Assembly (NCBI GenBank): GCA_017522185.1
Contig: JAFWZZ010000018.1
Coordinates: forward strand, 1-38,820
Source of the DNA: Bacillota bacterium
GTDB lineage: Bacteria > Bacillota > Clostridia > Peptostreptococcales > Anaerovoracaceae
Direction: 5' to 3'
DNA length: 38,820 nucleotides
The translations under genes were made by a program, and so were the position numbers. Shown in pieces: positions 215 through 38,820 of the stretch. The notes beneath the pieces are model-generated. The model did not search any database. It was not told the DNA's origin and saw nothing but the letters and a program-made list of their open reading frames with translations. The stretch's first letter is position 1. Each line of letters begins with the position of its first letter.

Positions 215-390
215 GACTGTACAGACAACGCGCACAGTTTTGTGAAAGGCTTAGGGGCAATCATATAAGACAAAAGAAAAAGACTTTGGCTAGAGTTTGA
301 TACCAATTTTATCAAACTCCCCAAAGTCTTCGTTGTCTTATCTATGATTGCCTAAGGCTTGAACAACTGTAAGCGCTGTCTTGTACAGTC
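215..390 (-). terminator. Giant nested hairpin at the 3' end of groEL (element 1)
   Basis: A ~176-nt inverted repeat whose outer stem begins 3 nt after the groEL stop codon. Paired blocks read in plus coordinates are 215-223 with 382-390, 224-227 with 377-380, 229-231 with 373-375, 234-239 with 365-370 (ACAGTT/AACTGT), 250-255 with 351-356, 257-264 with 344-351 (GCAATCAT/ATGATTGC), 266-273 with 333-340, 280-289 with 321-330 (AAGACTTTGG/CCAAAGTCTT), and 294-302 with 310-318 around a 7-nt loop. Read in the direction of groEL, the central stem is followed by TTTTTCTTTTG, so the inner part is a Rho-independent terminator. The outer arms then close over it. The same layout occurs at 38418-38610 and in part at 38751-38820. 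Confidence 0.85.
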
Positions 391-393
391 CGC

Positions 394-2031
<1,638 letters not shown>

Positions 2032-16568: not shown

Positions 16569-16636
16569 CATATACGTTTTTAAATTTAGCTAGCCCCCAA
16601 ACTTTTTTGGAGTTAAGCACTTCGGGTACTGTCAGG

Positions 16637-16692
16637 CCCTAAAGCCAGACCCCAAACTATTTTGGAGAAACCCCAAACCTTTTTGGATACCC
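16637..16692. repeat. Right end of the insertion sequence
   Basis: A compound block. Bases 16637-16657 and 16646-16666 are perfect inverted copies of two separate left-end sites. A second degenerate CCCCAAACCTTTTTGGATA (16671-16689) forms the outer terminal repeat. Confidence 0.8.
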
Positions 16693-16698
16693 CAAAAA

Positions 16699-16738
16699 GG
16701 GGAGATTGAACCGAAAATTCAATCTCCCTTTTTTTATT
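16699..16738. terminator. Bidirectional terminator at the insertion point
   Basis: Eleven-bp stem GGGAGATTGAA/TTCAATCTCCC (16700-16710 with 16718-16728) with seven Ts on the right and, on the minus strand, CTTTTTGG on the left. It probably ends the Big2 gene on the minus strand. The 8-bp flanking repeat of the insertion sequence overlaps the first base of the stem. The remaining bases up to the gene at 16832 hold nothing I can name except a short AATCTG/CAGATT stem. Confidence 0.85.
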
Positions 16739-31808: not shown

Positions 31809-33212
31809 TCACAAATCACAAATTATTTCAATACAAATCACCTTTTTTGTGTCTGGACACAGTTTAAATTTCGAACAAAACCTGCCTTTCCCCTGATAAG
31901 GCGTTGCCCACAGCACATCGTGGCCGATTTTGACCAGTTGTACCTGGTCTCTCTGGTCCTTTGGAATCTTCCTGTCCACGAAATAGTCCTGTATCTTCTT
32001 GCGCTTTCCGCCATCCATGGCGATGGTGTCCCCCGGCTCCCGGGCCCCAAGGACAATGCGCTCCACAAAACCGGCACCATACGCCGCTTCCATCTGATCC
32101 GCATCAAAGGCACCATGGCTGTTTTTGTCCAGTCTCAGATTGCGGTATGCATCGGCTGACAGGACCTGAATCTGCAGGCGGCCTGTTTCGTTCTTTTCTT
32201 CCGCCAGAAACACTTTGATGTCGTCGTAATTCTTTGCAAAGCAATAACCCTTGGGCAGGTCTACTGACGCAGAAGGATGCCCGTGGAAGACGATTTCCTC
32301 ACACTTTGCAAAATGTGTGTAAGTCAGGTCCTCCGTCAGGCCGATTTCAGCAAAGGCTCTTGCTATGACGCGCTGCCGGATGCTTCTGTGCAGCGTGCGC
32401 AGGCCTTCTCCATCCAGCAGGATGCTTTTCTCTGTCTTTTCCCTGCAGAGTTCTTTGAAGGCAGTTCCCGCGGTTTCCCACAGGAACTCCTTGTCTGCGG
32501 CGCAACTCTTCCCCATTCTAATCATTGTATCCGTAATATTGGGATTGTATTCCTGTAAGAAAGGAATCAGTTCCAGCCTGATTTTGTTTCTTGCATAAAC
32601 CGGTTCCAGATTAGTATGATCAATCCTCGGCTGCAGTCCGGCATCCTGGCAATAGGCCAGAATCTCCTTTTTGCGGCAGTCCAGAAGTGGTCTGATAATT
32701 TGAAATCCGGTTTCATCCGTGCGGCTGTAGGAAATACCCGCAAGCCCGTCGGTACCTGCACCGCGCAGCATGCGGAACAGAATGGTTTCCGCCTGATCGT
32801 CTGCATTCTGTGCAACGGCAATGACAATATCCTCCTTTGGAATCCCTCCTGCAAGCAGTGCCTGCGCCTTCTTTCCAAATGCCTCGTAGCGGGCTTTGCG
32901 GCCGGCCTCTTCAGAGGTCATCTTCTGTTCCTCCGCGATGATGTTGCAGTCATAGACGAAGGATGTACATGGCCAGCCCCTTTCTTCGCACAGTCTCTCC
33001 ACATAGGCCTGGTCCTCTTCCGCATCTCCCGGTCTGAATTTGTGGTTGACATGGACCGGATAAAGCTTCCACTCCTGCGCCTCCGCCTCCCTGCAGAGCA
33101 CGTCAAAAAGGCACACCGAATCAGGACCTCCAGAGAGGCCTAATACAATGTGCGCTCCTTTTTTACATAAATCATGTTCTTTGATTGTATTGAGAATCTT
33201 TTTCTTTACCAT
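31809..33212 (-). CDS. tilS: tRNA(Ile)-lysidine synthetase TilS
   Basis: Converts the wobble C34 of tRNA-Ile(CAU) to lysidine, an essential reaction. The 467-residue protein has the PP-loop SGGPDSVCL (near 26), the N-type ATPase domain with GHNADDQAET-like AVAQNADDQAETILFRMLRG, and a TilS C-terminal domain (about 380-467, VLGAREPGDTIAMDG ... IQDYFVDRKIPKDQRDQV). The ATG at 33212 directly follows a -10 box. No ribosome binding site is present, so the transcript may be leaderless. In most Bacillota hpt follows tilS before ftsH; it is missing here. Confidence 0.96.
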   Translation of the reverse strand: MVKKKILNTIKEHDLCKKGAHIVLGLSGGPDSVCLFDVLCREAEAQEWKLYPVHVNHKFRPGDAEEDQAYVERLCEERGWPCTSFVYDCNIIAEEQKMTSEEAGRKARYEAFGKKAQALLAGGIPKEDIVIAVAQNADDQAETILFRMLRGAGTDGLAGISYSRTDETGFQIIRPLLDCRKKEILAYCQDAGLQPRIDHTNLEPVYARNKIRLELIPFLQEYNPNITDTMIRMGKSCAADKEFLWETAGTAFKELCREKTEKSILLDGEGLRTLHRSIRQRVIARAFAEIGLTEDLTYTHFAKCEEIVFHGHPSASVDLPKGYCFAKNYDDIKVFLAEEKNETGRLQIQVLSADAYRNLRLDKNSHGAFDADQMEAAYGAGFVERIVLGAREPGDTIAMDGGKRKKIQDYFVDRKIPKDQRDQVQLVKIGHDVLWATPYQGKGRFCSKFKLCPDTKKVICIEIICDL

Positions 33213-33218
33213 GGTTCT

Positions 33219-33247
33219 ATTATATACCACTGGTAACGGTTTATCAA
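33219..33247 (-). promoter_or_regulatory. tilS promoter, probably giving a leaderless mRNA
   Basis: Minus strand TTGATA (33242-33247), exactly 17 bp, then TATAAT (33219-33224). Only six bases separate the -10 box from the tilS ATG, so transcription should start at about the A of the ATG. The -35 overlaps the stop codon of spoIIE. Confidence 0.75.
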
Positions 33248-34998
33248 ACGTCAATTGCCGCCGTCAGCACCGTCAGATCGTCCCGTTCATGGATGCCATA
33301 CTTTTCCGCGGCTTTATTGATGACCAGTTCTGCAATCGTCTCTGGATCTCTGCTTCCGAACTCCAGAAGCCTCGACCGCAGCCAGTCGCAGCGAAAATCT
33401 TTGCGGTCGCATTCCGTTACGCCGTCTGAAACCATGACAAGAAGATCCCCCCGCTTCAATTTGATGTCGATGTATTCCAGGTCCAGTCCTGCGGTAATCC
33501 CTGCCGGCAGCGCCTGCCGTTTCAGCATGGACACCCTTCCATCATGTTTGATGAACGTGGTCGCCGCCCCCATCTTGTAAATCTTCGCCCGGCATTTTGC
33601 TCTGTCGATAATGGCAAGATCTACCGTGGCAAAACGCTCTTCTCCACCGGAAGCCATAAGAATCCCGTTAACCGTCTTCATAGCCAGATCCACATCAAAG
33701 CCTGCCTGCAGCAGCCGCATCAGTGTCGAGACTACCATCTTACTCTCTTCTGCAGCCTCCCTGCCTTTCCCCATGCCGTCGCTGATTACCAAAGCGATTT
33801 TGTGGTCATCAAAGGAAAATGCCGCCATGCTGTCACCGGAAACTGTTTCCGCTGAGTATGAAGCCTGTCCCACGCTGACTTTGACGAGCCTTCCACCTTC
33901 TGTCCGCAAAGCAGTTCTTCCCTGCAGGTCCTCCTGCAGACGATCTATCGTTCTTGCCATCCCGGTAAACTGATAGGACAAAATCTGTTTACCTTCCAGC
34001 TCCGTACCACAGAGTCTGCTCAGGCTCAGAAAGGCCTCCTTCTTCTTCTGCAGGTCACGACGGATGGCCAGATGCTGCAAATCTCTCTCCGTGAGGGCCT
34101 CAGGCAAAAACCGGTTTTCTATCATGTATCCTGCCTTTGAGAAAGTTCCCGCCGGCATCCATATAAACAGTGCCATCGCCGCTGCAAATCCATATACAAA
34201 CCCGCCGCCTGTTCCGCTTAAGGAAATCAACAAAACGGTTCCTATCACGATTTTCCGATACGTCTTGTCGACCCATGATGCCAGATACCACGCCGTCATC
34301 ATGCCTACAAGCAGCCATCCATAAATCTGCCACTGGCTTTCAACCAGGCAAAAGGAACAGACTGCAGTAACACCGGCCAGGGAAAACGCTTCCTTCAGGC
34401 CTTTGTTGTAAAGCATGGCTGCGATCAGAAACAACCAAAGGGAAAAGACCACTTCGTAAATCCCTATGGCTCCGATAAAAGAAACCGCCATAATTTCCAG
34501 GGAAACCGAAATCCGTTCCCTGGAAATACCGCAATGAGGCTTTCCCGTATAAAGGATTTTTGCAATGGTGTTGAAAACTCTGACATAAATGCAGAACGCC
34601 ATCGCTTCCATGAGCAGAACCTCCGGTTTCATCAGGAATAGCATGTCCACACAGAGAAAAGCGGCCAGATTACACAGTATAAGGACTGCCACTCCAATGG
34701 CCGTCCGCTGATTGATTGATAACTTTTTCTGATGAAAGAATAGAAAGAAAACCGCCAGACATGTCACTGCCGCCATGTCTCCATATAGAAACACTCCTTG
34801 TCTCATATAACATAACATCCCGCCCAGTACGAAAGGCAGCAGGTAGATATAGACCGTAGACACCGCCAGCATGACAATGACAAACGCCGGTGCTGCCGGA
34901 AATGTTCCGTCAAACAAATTGATGCGGCCTGCAAAAAACGCCGCGATACAGACAGCAGCCAGCTCTTTCCCCTGCACACGTTTTCCTATAAACTCCAT
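33244..34998 (-). CDS. spoIIE: SpoIIE-type membrane serine phosphatase (short form)
   Basis: In spore formers SpoIIE dephosphorylates SpoIIAA and so activates sigma F. The 584-residue protein starts with about ten hydrophobic segments (1-290), opening with AAFFAGRINLFDGTFPAAPA as in SpoIIE. A short coiled segment (305-375) follows, then a PP2C phosphatase domain (375-584) with SGDSMA, LVISDGMGKG, FATVDLAIID, MVSDGV and DDLTV metal and substrate motifs. B. subtilis SpoIIE has about 827 residues; the deficit lies in the central FtsZ/oligomerisation region. Its place ahead of tilS-ftsH matches the B. subtilis order. GGGGGAAAAT precedes the ATG. Confidence 0.9.
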   Translation of the reverse strand: MEFIGKRVQGKELAAVCIAAFFAGRINLFDGTFPAAPAFVIVMLAVSTVYIYLLPFVLGGMLCYMRQGVFLYGDMAAVTCLAVFFLFFHQKKLSINQRTAIGVAVLILCNLAAFLCVDMLFLMKPEVLLMEAMAFCIYVRVFNTIAKILYTGKPHCGISRERISVSLEIMAVSFIGAIGIYEVVFSLWLFLIAAMLYNKGLKEAFSLAGVTAVCSFCLVESQWQIYGWLLVGMMTAWYLASWVDKTYRKIVIGTVLLISLSGTGGGFVYGFAAAMALFIWMPAGTFSKAGYMIENRFLPEALTERDLQHLAIRRDLQKKKEAFLSLSRLCGTELEGKQILSYQFTGMARTIDRLQEDLQGRTALRTEGGRLVKVSVGQASYSAETVSGDSMAAFSFDDHKIALVISDGMGKGREAAEESKMVVSTLMRLLQAGFDVDLAMKTVNGILMASGGEERFATVDLAIIDRAKCRAKIYKMGAATTFIKHDGRVSMLKRQALPAGITAGLDLEYIDIKLKRGDLLVMVSDGVTECDRKDFRCDWLRSRLLEFGSRDPETIAELVINKAAEKYGIHERDDLTVLTAAIDV

Positions 34999-35199: not shown

Positions 35200-35691
35200 A
35201 TGCGAAGTGATTACGAACTTCGGCTTGCTATGGAGCGCTATGGCGATACCGTTCGACGTATATGTATGATTCATCTCAAAAACTATGCAGACACAGAAGA
35301 CATATTCCAGAATGTATTTCTGAAATATGCTCTCTGCGAAACGGAATTTACAAATGAAGAACATGAAAAAGCCTGGATTATCCGTGTCGCAATCAATGCC
35401 TGCAAGGATCTTCTCAAAAGTTTTTTCCACAAGAAAAGCGTGCCTCTGGAGTCTTTGATTGAAACTGCGGATTCCATTGCACCAAATCATCGTGAACTTC
35501 TTCAGACTATTTTGGATCTTCCGGAAAAGTATAGAAAGGTGATTTATCTCTACTACTACGAAGGGTATTCAGCAGCCGAAATAGGTCAGATTTTAGAGAC
35601 GAATGTAAACACTGTTTACACAAATCTAACCAGAGCAAGAAAACTGCTCAAAGAGGAATTAGGAGATTACAATGAAAGATCAGATTTTTAA
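35200..35691 (+). CDS. ECF-type RNA polymerase sigma factor
   Basis: A 163-residue sigma-70-family factor with only regions 2 and 4. Region 2 includes NYADTEDIFQNVFLKYAL and EKAWIIRVAINACKD (about 27-70). Region 4 includes LPEKYRKVIYLYYYEGYSA and a helix-turn-helix IGQILETNVNTVYTNLTRAR (about 110-150). It is preceded by TTGAGGTAGCTATAT as ribosome binding site. Its end overlaps the start of the anti-sigma gene by 20 nt, so the pair is translationally coupled. Confidence 0.94.
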   Translation: MRSDYELRLAMERYGDTVRRICMIHLKNYADTEDIFQNVFLKYALCETEFTNEEHEKAWIIRVAINACKDLLKSFFHKKSVPLESLIETADSIAPNHRELLQTILDLPEKYRKVIYLYYYEGYSAAEIGQILETNVNTVYTNLTRARKLLKEELGDYNERSDF

Positions 35692-36931
35692 TGCTTTTAA
35701 TCAAATTCACGCGGAAGAAGCATTGATCGAAAAAACATTAGAAGGGATGTATTCATATAGAGAAAAAAGAAGTAGAAGGGCTTTTTTCTCCCAGCGTGGT
35801 ATGGCATTGGCCGTATCTTTCGCTATGATGTTATGCATCGGTGTAACAGGCTGGCAAAGCTATTTCACACAGGCCTTTGCTTTGACCGTTGACGTAAACC
35901 CATCGATTGAAATGACGGTAAACCATTTTGACAGAGTCATTTCCGCCAAGGGTTTTAACGCGGAAGGACTGGAAGTTATTTCAGCCGTCAATGTGAAGCA
36001 TATGAATTATGCCGACGCCGTAGACTGCCTGTTAGAAGAACAAAAGAGAGAAGGATTTTTGGAAGATGACGGTACGGTACTTGTTGCGGTAGCCTGTCCA
36101 AAGGAAAAGAAGGCCGCACAGGTGAAGGAAGTCATCGATACTGCGCAGGCAGAAACGTCTCAGACTGTTGCGGTTGTACAGCCGGAAAAAGCAGTTGTCG
36201 TGGAAGCGGAAAAACACGACATGTCTTTCGGTAAGTATCAGGCCTACCTGGATATCCAGGAAGTGGAACCTGCGGTAACAACCGAAGAAGTCAAGGAAAT
36301 GAGCGTACAGGAAATCGCTTCCATCGTAAGCGATACAACACAGACCGGAAGCGCAATTGCAGCTGCAGGCGGCAGCCAGAGCAGCTCCAGTCATACGAAG
36401 GAACCTGTATCTGCACCGGTGGATGCTTCCACTAGTGCAAGTACCAGCAATCCAGGCAAAGACACAGGAACGAACGCTAACACAAGTGCCAGTCCTAATG
36501 CGGGTACAAACGCGAATACGAGCGCAACACCAAATAGTTCCACAAATTCTTCATCTGGCGGTTCTGATAAGAAGCCTGTTACCAATTCGAATAACGGTAC
36601 TGACAGCAGCACAGATAAGAAGCCTGCTGATACCGGTAACAAAGACAATGCTTCTGACAAGAAACCAACCGGAACGACCGACAAGGACAATGCTTCTGAC
36701 AAGAAACCAACCGGAACGACCGACAAGGACAATGCTTCTGACAAGAAACCTGCCGGTACCACTGACAAAGACGATACTTCCGTGAAGGATCCTGTCGGTG
36801 AAACAACACCAGCCCCTGTTCCTGAAACAGTGCCTGGTGATAACGCAGAAAGCTCCGACGTCAATGTTGAAAACAATCATGTTGAAGACGAAGGCATCGA
36901 GCCTGAAGCAACAGAAAATTTAGCACCATAA
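35672..36931 (+). CDS. RsgI-like membrane anti-sigma factor with Asn-Pro cleavage motif
   Basis: A 419-residue one-pass membrane protein: cytoplasmic part (1-42, expected to hold the sigma factor), membrane helix (about 44-62), and an outer RsgI-type domain. That domain begins LTVDVNPSIEMTVN, with the Asn76-Pro77 pair at which RsgI of Clostridium thermocellum is known to cleave itself, and runs to about 140 (FNAEGLEVI, NYADAVDCLLEEQ, GTVLVAVACP). A Gln/Glu-rich segment is followed by a low-complexity Ser/Thr/Asn/Lys/Pro tail (about 230-419). The tail includes repeats of D-N-A-S-D-K-K-P-T-G-T-T-D-K and probably reaches into or through the cell wall. No carbohydrate-binding module is seen. Confidence 0.88.
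   Translation: MKDQIFNAFNQIHAEEALIEKTLEGMYSYREKRSRRAFFSQRGMALAVSFAMMLCIGVTGWQSYFTQAFALTVDVNPSIEMTVNHFDRVISAKGFNAEGLEVISAVNVKHMNYADAVDCLLEEQKREGFLEDDGTVLVAVACPKEKKAAQVKEVIDTAQAETSQTVAVVQPEKAVVVEAEKHDMSFGKYQAYLDIQEVEPAVTTEEVKEMSVQEIASIVSDTTQTGSAIAAAGGSQSSSSHTKEPVSAPVDASTSASTSNPGKDTGTNANTSASPNAGTNANTSATPNSSTNSSSGGSDKKPVTNSNNGTDSSTDKKPADTGNKDNASDKKPTGTTDKDNASDKKPTGTTDKDNASDKKPAGTTDKDDTSVKDPVGETTPAPVPETVPGDNAESSDVNVENNHVEDEGIEPEATENLAP
36644..36769 (+). repeat. Three 42-bp tandem repeats in the anti-sigma tail
   Basis: Units at 36644-36685, 36686-36727 and 36728-36769. The first two are identical and the third is diverged in its second half. They encode 14-residue units of the extracytoplasmic tail and could vary in number. 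Confidence 0.92.
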
Positions 36932-37006: not shown

Positions 37007-37034
37007 TTGCTATTTCCCGCCCCGTTGATATAAT
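37007..37034 (+). promoter_or_regulatory. nhaC-like gene promoter
   Basis: TTGCTA (37007-37012), 16-bp spacer, TATAAT (37029-37034), 28 nt before the start codon. Confidence 0.75.
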
Positions 37035-37062
37035 GGGAGTAAGATATAAAGGAGGCTTGTTT

Positions 37063-38418
37063 ATGGAAATGGATTACGGCATCATCTCCTGTATACCGAT
37101 TACGGTATTGATGGTAGGAGTGTTATTAACGAAGAGAATCACAGAGATGATGGTTTTGGCTTCCCTGCTGGGTGCCATCCTCATTCACAAAGGAGACTTT
37201 TTCTCTGGATACATTGATATGATTTACGGCACGCTGTCCAATTCTTCCTATCATTTTGTACTGTTCATTCTGATGGGATTTGGCGGCATGATCAAGCTGT
37301 TCCAAGAATCCGGCGCATTGCTTGGGTTCCGGCATACTCTGTCCAAACATGTAAAGGGAGAAAAAACGCCGCTCCTTGTTGCCTGGCTCATGTCGGCAAT
37401 CATGTTCGTCGATGACTATCTGTGCGCGCTGGCGGTATCTTTCTCCATGCGTGAAATCACAGATGAAAACAAAATCCCCCGTGAACATCTGGCCTTCCAG
37501 GTTAACGTGCTGTCCTCCTGCATCTGCATCCTGATACCATTCAGCAGCTGGGTTGCATTTACCAGCGGTCTTCTGCAGGATCAAGGGTTCGGCTTCTCCG
37601 ACTACATGGCCGGCCTGCCGTTTATGTTCTATCCGATTCTGATGGCCATCCTATGTATTTTGCTGGCTGTCGGCGTCATCCCAAAGGTAGGCGCCATGAA
37701 GAACTCCTATGAGCGACTGCGCACCGGCGGTCCTCTCCTCCCGGATGAAAAAGGCAGCGCCTCCATCGTAAACCTGGAAATGGAAAACGAGGTCAAAGAA
37801 AGCTCCGCACTAAACATCATCATCCCGGTTGCTGTAATGGTTGCCGTGGTGCTGATTTACGATAACGATCTGGTCCACGGCATCTTCGCATGCATCGCGG
37901 CCCAGTGCCTCATGTACGTATTTGGAAAGATTATGTCCCTGTCCGAGTTCGTGGACCACTTCTACGAAGGTGCCAAGTCCATGTGCTCCATGGCAATTCT
38001 TGTATGCTTCTCCTTCACCTTGAGCGCAGCAAACCAGACCATGGGATTCTTCGATTTCCTCATCGGCGGCATCAGCCAGAACATTGCTCCTGAACTGATT
38101 CCTGCCCTGACCTTCGTCACCGTAGGTCTTGCCGTATTCGCAACGGCCGGTTACTGGGTCATCCAGGTTATCACCATTCCGGTGTTTATTCCACTGGCAG
38201 TGGCTGTAGGACTTCCTGTACCGATTGCTATCGCGGCTGTGATGAGCGGCGTAGGATTCGGCGGCAACTTCTGCTTCTACTCCGACACCGTATTCATGAC
38301 CGCAGCCGGTACCGGCATCTCCAACGTGAGACAGATCAAAGTCTCCGCGCCATACATCCTGACGATAACGGCCATTACGCTCATTGCTTATGTTGTGCTG
38401 GGGTATGTGGTTATGTAA
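37063..38418 (+). CDS. NhaC-family Na+/H+ antiporter-like membrane protein
   Basis: A 451-residue integral membrane protein with about 11 hydrophobic segments. Segments such as FVDDYLCALAVSFSMREIT, a conserved SSCICILIPFSSWVAF helix and GVGFGGNFCFYSDTVFMTAA near the C terminus (with the SDT motif) fit the NhaC/ion-transporter superfamily. Substrate exchange could be Na+/H+ or an amino acid or organic acid. AAAGGAGGCTTGTTT precedes the ATG at 37063; an upstream in-frame ATG contains the promoter and ribosome binding site. It is a single-gene unit whose stop codon is part of the giant hairpin behind it. Confidence 0.9.
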   Translation: MEMDYGIISCIPITVLMVGVLLTKRITEMMVLASLLGAILIHKGDFFSGYIDMIYGTLSNSSYHFVLFILMGFGGMIKLFQESGALLGFRHTLSKHVKGEKTPLLVAWLMSAIMFVDDYLCALAVSFSMREITDENKIPREHLAFQVNVLSSCICILIPFSSWVAFTSGLLQDQGFGFSDYMAGLPFMFYPILMAILCILLAVGVIPKVGAMKNSYERLRTGGPLLPDEKGSASIVNLEMENEVKESSALNIIIPVAVMVAVVLIYDNDLVHGIFACIAAQCLMYVFGKIMSLSEFVDHFYEGAKSMCSMAILVCFSFTLSAANQTMGFFDFLIGGISQNIAPELIPALTFVTVGLAVFATAGYWVIQVITIPVFIPLAVAVGLPVPIAIAAVMSGVGFGGNFCFYSDTVFMTAAGTGISNVRQIKVSAPYILTITAITLIAYVVLGYVVM

Positions 38419-38610
38419 ATCCCCGTCAGCACATGCCATGCACAGTTCTTTTGTTGCTGGCAATCATAGACGAGAATCTCAAAGACTTTGGTGTCTTTCA
38501 CGAAAATGGGCTTTCGCCCCGTGACAAGACAACCCAAAGTCTTTTTTCGTTTCTCGTATGATTGCAGCAGCTCCTCAAGCAAACTGTGCCCGACATGTCT
38601 GACGGGGATT
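38418..38610 (+). terminator. Giant nested hairpin at the 3' end of the antiporter gene (element 2)
   Basis: A ~193-nt inverted repeat beginning with the last base of the stop codon. Paired blocks: 38418-38429 with 38599-38610 (12 bp, perfect); 38431-38435 with 38594-38598; 38441-38447 with 38582-38588 (CACAGTT/AACTGTG); 38460-38468 with 38557-38565 (GCAATCATA/TATGATTGC); 38470-38476 with 38551-38557 (ACGAGAA/TTCTCGT); 38481-38491 with 38534-38544 (AAAGACTTTGG/CCAAAGTCTTT); then a forked top with 38498-38502/38520-38524 and GGGC/GCCC. A T-tract (38542-38547) follows the central stem in the gene direction. Core blocks are shared with element 1 in the same gene-relative orientation. Confidence 0.85.
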
Positions 38611-38750
38611 CTTAAGTATAGAAAACAGGATTCGTCAAAAGAAAGGTGAAGCGCAGTACAATCATTCGAAATGCCTTCCATGGTTGCGCATTGGTGGCTG
38701 TAAATAAAAAAGCGGCATGTTGCTGTGAGAGACTTTTCGCGAAGGCGAAG
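38611..38750. other. Intergenic segment between two hairpin elements
   Basis: About 140 bp with no gene. It contains a small stem around TTCGCGAAGGCGAA (38735-38749) and an isolated ACAATCATTC (38660-38669) that resembles the core block of the hairpins. The 3' arm of element 3 may start here. Confidence 0.4.
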
Positions 38751-38820
38751 GACAATCATACAAGGATACGAAGAAAGGGTTTGGATGGAGTTTGATACCA
38801 ATTTTATCAAACTCCCCAAA
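38751..38820 (-). terminator. Partial giant hairpin (element 3), cut by the window edge
   Basis: Only one arm and the top are visible. CAATCATA at 38753-38760 matches the core block; TTTGG (38780-38784) pairs with CCAAA (38816-38820); AGTTTGATA (38789-38797) pairs with TATCAAACT (38805-38813). The last 32 bases (38789-38820) are identical to 294-325 of element 1. The orientation equals element 1, so it should end a minus-strand gene lying beyond the right edge. Confidence 0.75.

Follow-up and report, generated by a model that had tools for sequence, protein, structure and literature searches.

Giant terminator-bearing palindromes at gene ends as a probable family of MITE-like DNA repeats

Several kinds of bacterial DNA combine palindromic structure with a position close to the ends of genes. 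YPAL elements insert just past stop codons, over terminator-like sequences, in hosts that belong to another phylum than those described here; ERIC elements are palindromic in form; and the attC sites of integrons, which adjoin stop codons, conserve their structure while their sequence varies. Compared by description, attC sites were set aside as an unlikely match, because the conserved blocks of the present elements lie in the middle and not at the ends. In the cited passages, YPAL or RU-2 (Yersinia palindromic sequences, about 168 bp) are described as small mobile intergenic units, interspersed and palindromic, with a predicted conserved stem-loop (PMC2759123, PMC2267715). The palindromes reported here are of similar size and likewise interspersed; unlike YPAL, compared by description, their arms differ widely among copies yet pair, their stems reach the stop codon and direct repeats occur only in one genome (G018). 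SPRITE, BOX, RUP and ERIC are further terminator-bearing or palindromic interspersed repeats (PMC10969869, in the passages concerned). According to the same passages, SPRITE is dispersed, has terminator-like sequences and includes elements inserted in one another, as in our family, and ERIC and other prokaryotic MITEs are small, intergenic and numerous, and part of them lie at the 3' ends of genes. Again compared by description, arm co-variation distinguishes our family from SPRITE as those passages present it, and it differs from ERIC and other MITEs in that its outer arms are copy-specific, flanking direct repeats are found in one genome only and a search for Y1 transposases found no parent transposon. 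REP/REPIN sequences with their RAYT transposase are intergenic palindromes too, but REPs measure 20-40 bp (PMC3733652, passage cited) and the present elements are far longer, in a genome (G000) that has no Y1 (RAYT/IS200) transposase. Template switching in replication creates and maintains hairpins, with multi-base compensatory changes and reverse-complement arm copying as in our family; in the part of the source cited it is reported for RNA genes (PMC8794818), whereas the present case is a dispersed intergenic repeat. Perfect inverted repeats are also enriched after stop codons across 118,019 genomes, as the cited passage states (PMC13155455). By anatomy and position, the present family appears to work like YPAL/SPRITE-type repeats, and the literature searched, mostly outside subscription papers, gave no description of it.

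The window, that is, the whole stretch of 38,820 nucleotides that we analysed, is contig C12 of genome G000 (2.12 Mb, 35 contigs). It contains three copies of the palindrome, which are listed below with their neighbours; R1 is a 97-position covariance model of the core, made from 12 copies including elements 1 and 2.

215..390, reverse strand: element 1, a giant palindrome (5' arm, core, 3' arm) directly after the groEL stop codon
256..352, reverse strand: core of element 1 (R1 match, 95.1 bits)
272..330, reverse strand: inner intrinsic terminator of element 1 (A-tract, stem with a 2-nt bulge, U-tract)
394..2025, reverse strand: groEL, the gene upstream of element 1, named by eye from the sequence
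37033..38418, forward strand: Na+/H+ antiporter gene (nhaC-like; PF03553, E 3.3e-16), upstream of element 2
38418..38610, forward strand: element 2, a giant palindrome beginning at the nhaC-like stop codon
38459..38566, forward strand: core of element 2 (R1 match, 87.1 bits)
about 38706..38820, reverse strand: element 3, a third copy, of the young A subfamily, reversed and cut by the contig end (R1 match C12:38780-38820, model positions 29-69)

Read in the sense of the upstream gene, elements 1 and 2 have the same order of blocks: ACAGTT, GCAATCATA and AAGACTTTGG, then an apical hairpin (in element 2 a GTCTTTCACG...CGTGACAAGAC module), followed by CCAAAGTCTTTTT, TATGATTGC and AACTGT. The base of the stem lies 3 nt past the groEL stop in element 1 and at the nhaC-like stop in element 2, and the centre holds a stem and then a U-tract in the sense of the upstream gene. 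An earlier reading of this DNA from its letters (the sequence-only reading) had stated this block order, this proximity to both stop codons and the central intrinsic terminator, and direct inspection of the sequence bore it out on all three; element 3 it had overlooked. When both strands of the window were folded locally and only single hairpins with >=40 pairs and an energy below -45 kcal/mol were kept, elements 1 and 2 had the lowest energies (-110.7 and -106.6 kcal/mol), and the next-lowest hairpin (-74.0 kcal/mol, 32904-33141) lay inside a coding frame; several other gene ends that were inspected within the window have short hairpins. The window also carries an ISL3-type transposase (PF01610, 14990-16516) followed at about 16590-16700 by several short repeats CCCCAAAC...TTTTTGG, and, by Pfam, a SpoIIE-type phosphatase (33244-34998) and an RsgI-like anti-sigma protein (RsgI_M, 35672-36931). 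At 38640-38705, and past the 3' arm of copy L047, a further repeat (ATGGTTGCGCATTGG...; AATCATTCGAAATG) adjoins A-subfamily copies and may form a palindrome of its own.

The sequence-only reading had proposed a covariance-model search of the host and related genomes, with many covarying copies at gene ends as its prediction and the window copies alone as the opposite outcome. R1 located 29 sites in G000, 27 of them at E <= 1.5e-9 and two as fragments cut by contig ends, with three weaker places (E 0.12-0.93) left out of this count, so that the window copies are far from alone. An identical 71-nt stretch is common to four of the 29 sites, and pairs of the A subfamily are 84-95% identical across the core and 45 nt on either side; like MITEs, the elements are short, dispersed and present in many copies, some of them near-identical. 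Six contig ends (C3, C11, C12, C13, C20 and C32) lie in or adjoin A-subfamily copies, and thus the assembly seems to be broken at the repeat, and G000 probably has more copies than were counted. Outside G000 the family is patchy, with many copies in some species and none found in their sisters: among 60 relatives, R1 matched none of the 12 genomes of the same genus and gave 11 matches in G018, which belongs to another genus. At E <= 1e-4, the 349 genomes searched with R1 in this bacterial family included at least 21 carriers, from 11 of 92 genera; the figure is a lower bound because the filters were strict and at most 11 candidates were scored per genome. In a class-wide draw of 391 genomes, with at most 10 candidates scored per genome, model R2 matched only G000 and G266, both of this bacterial family, and nothing outside it. 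As far as searched, therefore, the palindromes are confined to one bacterial family. A gapped IUPAC pattern gave two matches in named genomes and one in viral contigs (sets from which records of the own genome are possibly absent), and these were taken as chance because their folds show no such hairpin; a match in G043 (L065) was a different, near-perfect hairpin and was not accepted as a member.

Each element is about 150-250 nt in size and is built in layers. Outermost is a stem specific to each copy; inside it come a loop region with ACAGTT/AACTG or GTCCTCG/CTGCGGAA, then a block of the AATCATA type, and then a stem of variable sequence and ACTCAA. The innermost part has a stem, for example GACTTTGG, followed by the apical hairpin, a bulge of 2 nt, the partner of that stem and the U-tract; the bulge sits at one constant place in 60 of 63 cores. 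Oriented with the upstream gene, the core is predicted to act as a typical intrinsic terminator, and since the element brings its own terminator, that of the host gene would be replaced or enlarged. Among the G000 copies with a left neighbour, 24 of 26 lie downstream of a same-strand gene, and with crude open-frame calls the same held for 58 of 73 (from 81 copies, including 8 of G018). Of 26 G000 copies, 15 have the stop codon 33-46 nt before the core; the gap is 63-84 nt in 8 others and >130 nt in the last 3. In several genomes together, 48 of 67 copies were usable; the paired arm ended between -7 and +10 nt from the stop in 28 of these, against a permutation mean of 13.1 (p 1e-4), and the length of the arm followed the distance to the stop (Spearman 0.70); no such anchoring was seen in the G018 copies. 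At L061 (C22:16069) and L063 (C32:2) the upstream frame, judged by eye, possibly enters the element and would add element-encoded residues to the protein. A coding origin was rejected, since the core is open in some copies yet the frames, also compared by eye, differ among copies.

We consider it probable that these are non-coding, terminator-bearing, MITE-like palindromic DNA repeats that occupy the sites of ordinary terminators and whose arms are matched by DNA-level processes. Copies would spread as mobile DNA through some enzyme; some of them would enter a terminator already present by way of its loop, and the arms of that terminator would then become the outer stem; and the complementarity of the arms would be kept either by arm-to-arm DNA copying (replication template switching) or by co-recognition of the arms as inverted repeats. 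That stems end at stop codons could be explained because arm copying could run outwards until coding sequence halts it.

The occupation of terminator sites can be seen when the same loci are compared among sister species. At three convergent gene pairs within one genus, G155 has ordinary short bidirectional terminators at all three, and a giant hairpin occupies the same gap in G152 (three loci) or G150 (two loci). The outer stem that G152 has at locus 1 (GGCGAGAG/CTCTCGCC) matches the terminator stem of G155 (GCGAGAGC/GCTCTCGC) at equal distance from the stop, as would be expected if the element had entered the terminator loop; loss of the palindrome centre could mimic such an empty site. The match was partial, and not clear, at locus 2 and absent at locus 3, where the cores of G150 and G152 are equal at 92 of 96 positions and their outer stems are unrelated, each being self-complementary. 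In G150 the locus 1 copy (L140) has a core-like element inside larger palindromes with the ends GGGGACGGTTCTACTTGCAAA / TTTGCAAGTAGAACCGTCCCC, an arrangement of nested repeat families. The groEL end was readable in 7 of 12 sister species (four ends were missed by the pattern and one locus was left out) and carried the element in none of the seven: by eye, five had ordinary terminators, and in two a different kind of hairpin repeat lay close to the stop. At the groEL ends of G012 and G010 (L086, L089), hairpin repeats of the type CAACAAGGAGGGACCCG...GGGAGGATTCCTTGTTG, arranged in tandem and starting near the stop, represent a second gene-end repeat family.

The clearest sign that copies may be mobile comes from the sequences of G018. 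Here very similar cores are enclosed by differing self-complementary outer stems, the copies have ends of the GTTACAGTTCAGAGG type in common as candidate terminal inverted repeats, some with the shared ends are core-less or have a partial core (partly deleted), and L223 holds an additional palindrome within its apex; in G000, the outer ends differ from subfamily to subfamily. Exact direct repeats of 7-11 nt were present at the element ends of L072, L073, L214 and L238, four of the eight G018 copies that a fixed pattern retrieved (nine rows, L223 being read on both strands), while none of 5000 cross-pairs reached 7 nt. L069, L075, L212 and L223 had no direct repeat of >=7 nt, and one was seen by eye at L070. 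Outside G018, flanking repeats of >=7 nt occurred in 1 of 57 copies, which is at the null level of 1.8%, so that in the stop-anchored copies they do not rise above chance. The sequence-only reading had allowed that a known transposon with terminal repeats and target duplications might account for the copies; this is borne out in part, since shared ends with flanking direct repeats were found in G018 only, and no known transposon was recognised. Y1 transposases (PF01797, E <= 1e-5) numbered zero in G000, were missing from 16 of the 21 carriers and were rarer in carriers (5/21) than in non-carriers (132/328). Mobilisation by IS200/IS605 or RAYT was therefore rejected as the current cause in G000.

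A mobile hairpin might also insert specifically into terminator loops, so that every outer stem would be a split host terminator and outer stems would never have co-evolved. This explanation is possible, although we would not favour it: it is in accord with locus 1, with the unrelated outer stems on very similar cores at locus 3 and in G018, with the extra palindrome in the L223 apex and the replacement of apical hairpins, and with the existence of palindrome-targeting insertion sequences (PMC1525189, as stated in the cited passage), but loci 2 and 3 lack a clear match to the sister terminator, outer stems are frequently >=40 bp, several young A copies bring an identical outer stem along and the core itself co-varies. 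A further reading, which we put forward tentatively, is a nested-doll terminator parasite: mobile hairpins would invade terminator loops as well as one another's loops, the host terminator would turn into the outer stem, and arm copying in the course of replication would extend and rematch the stem to both stops.

How the arms stay matched can be followed between close copies, where a change may affect one or both sides of a pair. Two-sided Watson-Crick cells and one-sided cells were about equally common in G018 (136 and 165) and in G079 (282 and 253), counted over non-independent copy pairs, and numbered 22 and 37 in four B2 copies and 94 and 253 in seven g12 copies; the five young A copies of G000 had 64 one-sided cells and no two-sided ones, in addition to 4 two-sided non-pairing changes. 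One-sided changes prevail in three of the five copy groups, indicating that arm correction is not constantly active, and the young A copies contradict a uniform, continuous correction. The gene end at L112, with its stop codon, recurs over 19 nt as a perfect inverted copy in the 3' arm, beyond the element. By analogy with the hairpins mentioned above, template switching may act on this family.

It is unlikely, in our view, that template switching did everything, namely that non-mobile bidirectional terminators grew in place to both stops and their core spread by gene conversion only. The ending of stems at stop codons and the dependence of their length on the stop distance, the copied gene end of L112, the two-sided changes among close copies of G018 and G079 and the published mechanism (PMC8794818, in the part cited) would all suit such growth. 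However, the same core is found at unrelated genes and in 11 of 92 genera, young copies contain identical stretches, the G018 copies have shared ends and direct flanking repeats, and the youngest copies are dominated by one-sided changes.

The remaining question is whether pairing is kept in DNA or in RNA. Arm complementarity was scored by an X-drop alignment that rewards Watson-Crick matches only. Of the 67 copies scored, 60 lay above the 95th percentile of 1650 mismatched-arm controls and 37 surpassed the highest control (73 copies were given, of which 6 had <60 nt of flank and were not scored; the set did not include G018); stems that differ in sequence and nevertheless pair in each copy, as the sequence-only reading had it, are thus far above chance. 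In 63 distinct cores, 30 of 32 pairs had changes on both sides, 95.8% of cells were paired and the covariation score was 0.562 versus 0.176 in shuffles and <=0.099 when slid, a level above the controls that 0 of 500 shuffles reached, with an alignment fitted to the tested structure and counts that therefore lean towards structure. Selection on the transcript should prefer G.U to A.C on the transcribed strand. Outside two U-tract pairs, the 1851 lettered cells comprised 1761 Watson-Crick, 18 G.T, 16 A.C and 56 other, and the arms had 127 G.T versus 144 A.C; G.U was thus not tolerated above A.C. The U-tract pairs had 27 G.T versus 2 A.C, with U on the 3' side in 25 of 27, an excess that provides a useful internal control for the wobble test. 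Folding both strands of 27 copies gave 102 versus 104 G.U pairs, and the reverse strand had the lower energy in 20 of 27. As no wobble bias exists outside the U-tract, pairing looks to be kept at the DNA level; the U-tract is the sole part of the palindrome with visible RNA-level constraint, which was not measurable in the palindrome apart from the terminator. At the gathering score Rfam gave no family in the window, and at E <= 1 element 1 gave sub-threshold generic hairpins only. A structured RNA class in 3'-UTRs (a stability element, an RNase III substrate or a released small RNA) with pairing kept by transcript selection is hence the least probable explanation: the two-sided changes, the sense orientation with the upstream gene and the conserved bulge and U-tract speak for it, but the balance of G.T and A.C in core and arms, the better fold of the reverse strand, the Rfam result and a core terminator that comes before the 3' arm, and would release transcripts ahead of its synthesis, speak against it.

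The sequence-only reading had interpreted pairing maintained through sequence change as selection on structure; the two-sided changes are real, and the lack of a G.U preference points to DNA. Of its two proposals, a new class of structured RNA in 3'-UTRs loses weight through this lack, through the reverse-strand folds and through the early release that the inner terminator would cause, and a MITE-like element spreading into terminators is favoured by the repeated copies, the sense terminator core, the positions of sister terminators and the ends and repeats of G018.

For RNA discovery, two-sided covariation alone would mislead, as palindrome arms point to DNA-level matching, and this family-wide data set, with strong two-sided covariation and little sign of RNA-level selection, is a warning for covariation-based searches. 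If the nested-doll reading is true, the whole intergenic space would be a single DNA hairpin, complementary to itself, and its covariation would pass for that of a structured RNA. The family also allows a natural test of whether 'compensatory' changes can come from template switching. Finally, terminators emerge here as sites that repeated palindromes inhabit, and these would carry a replacement terminator with them.
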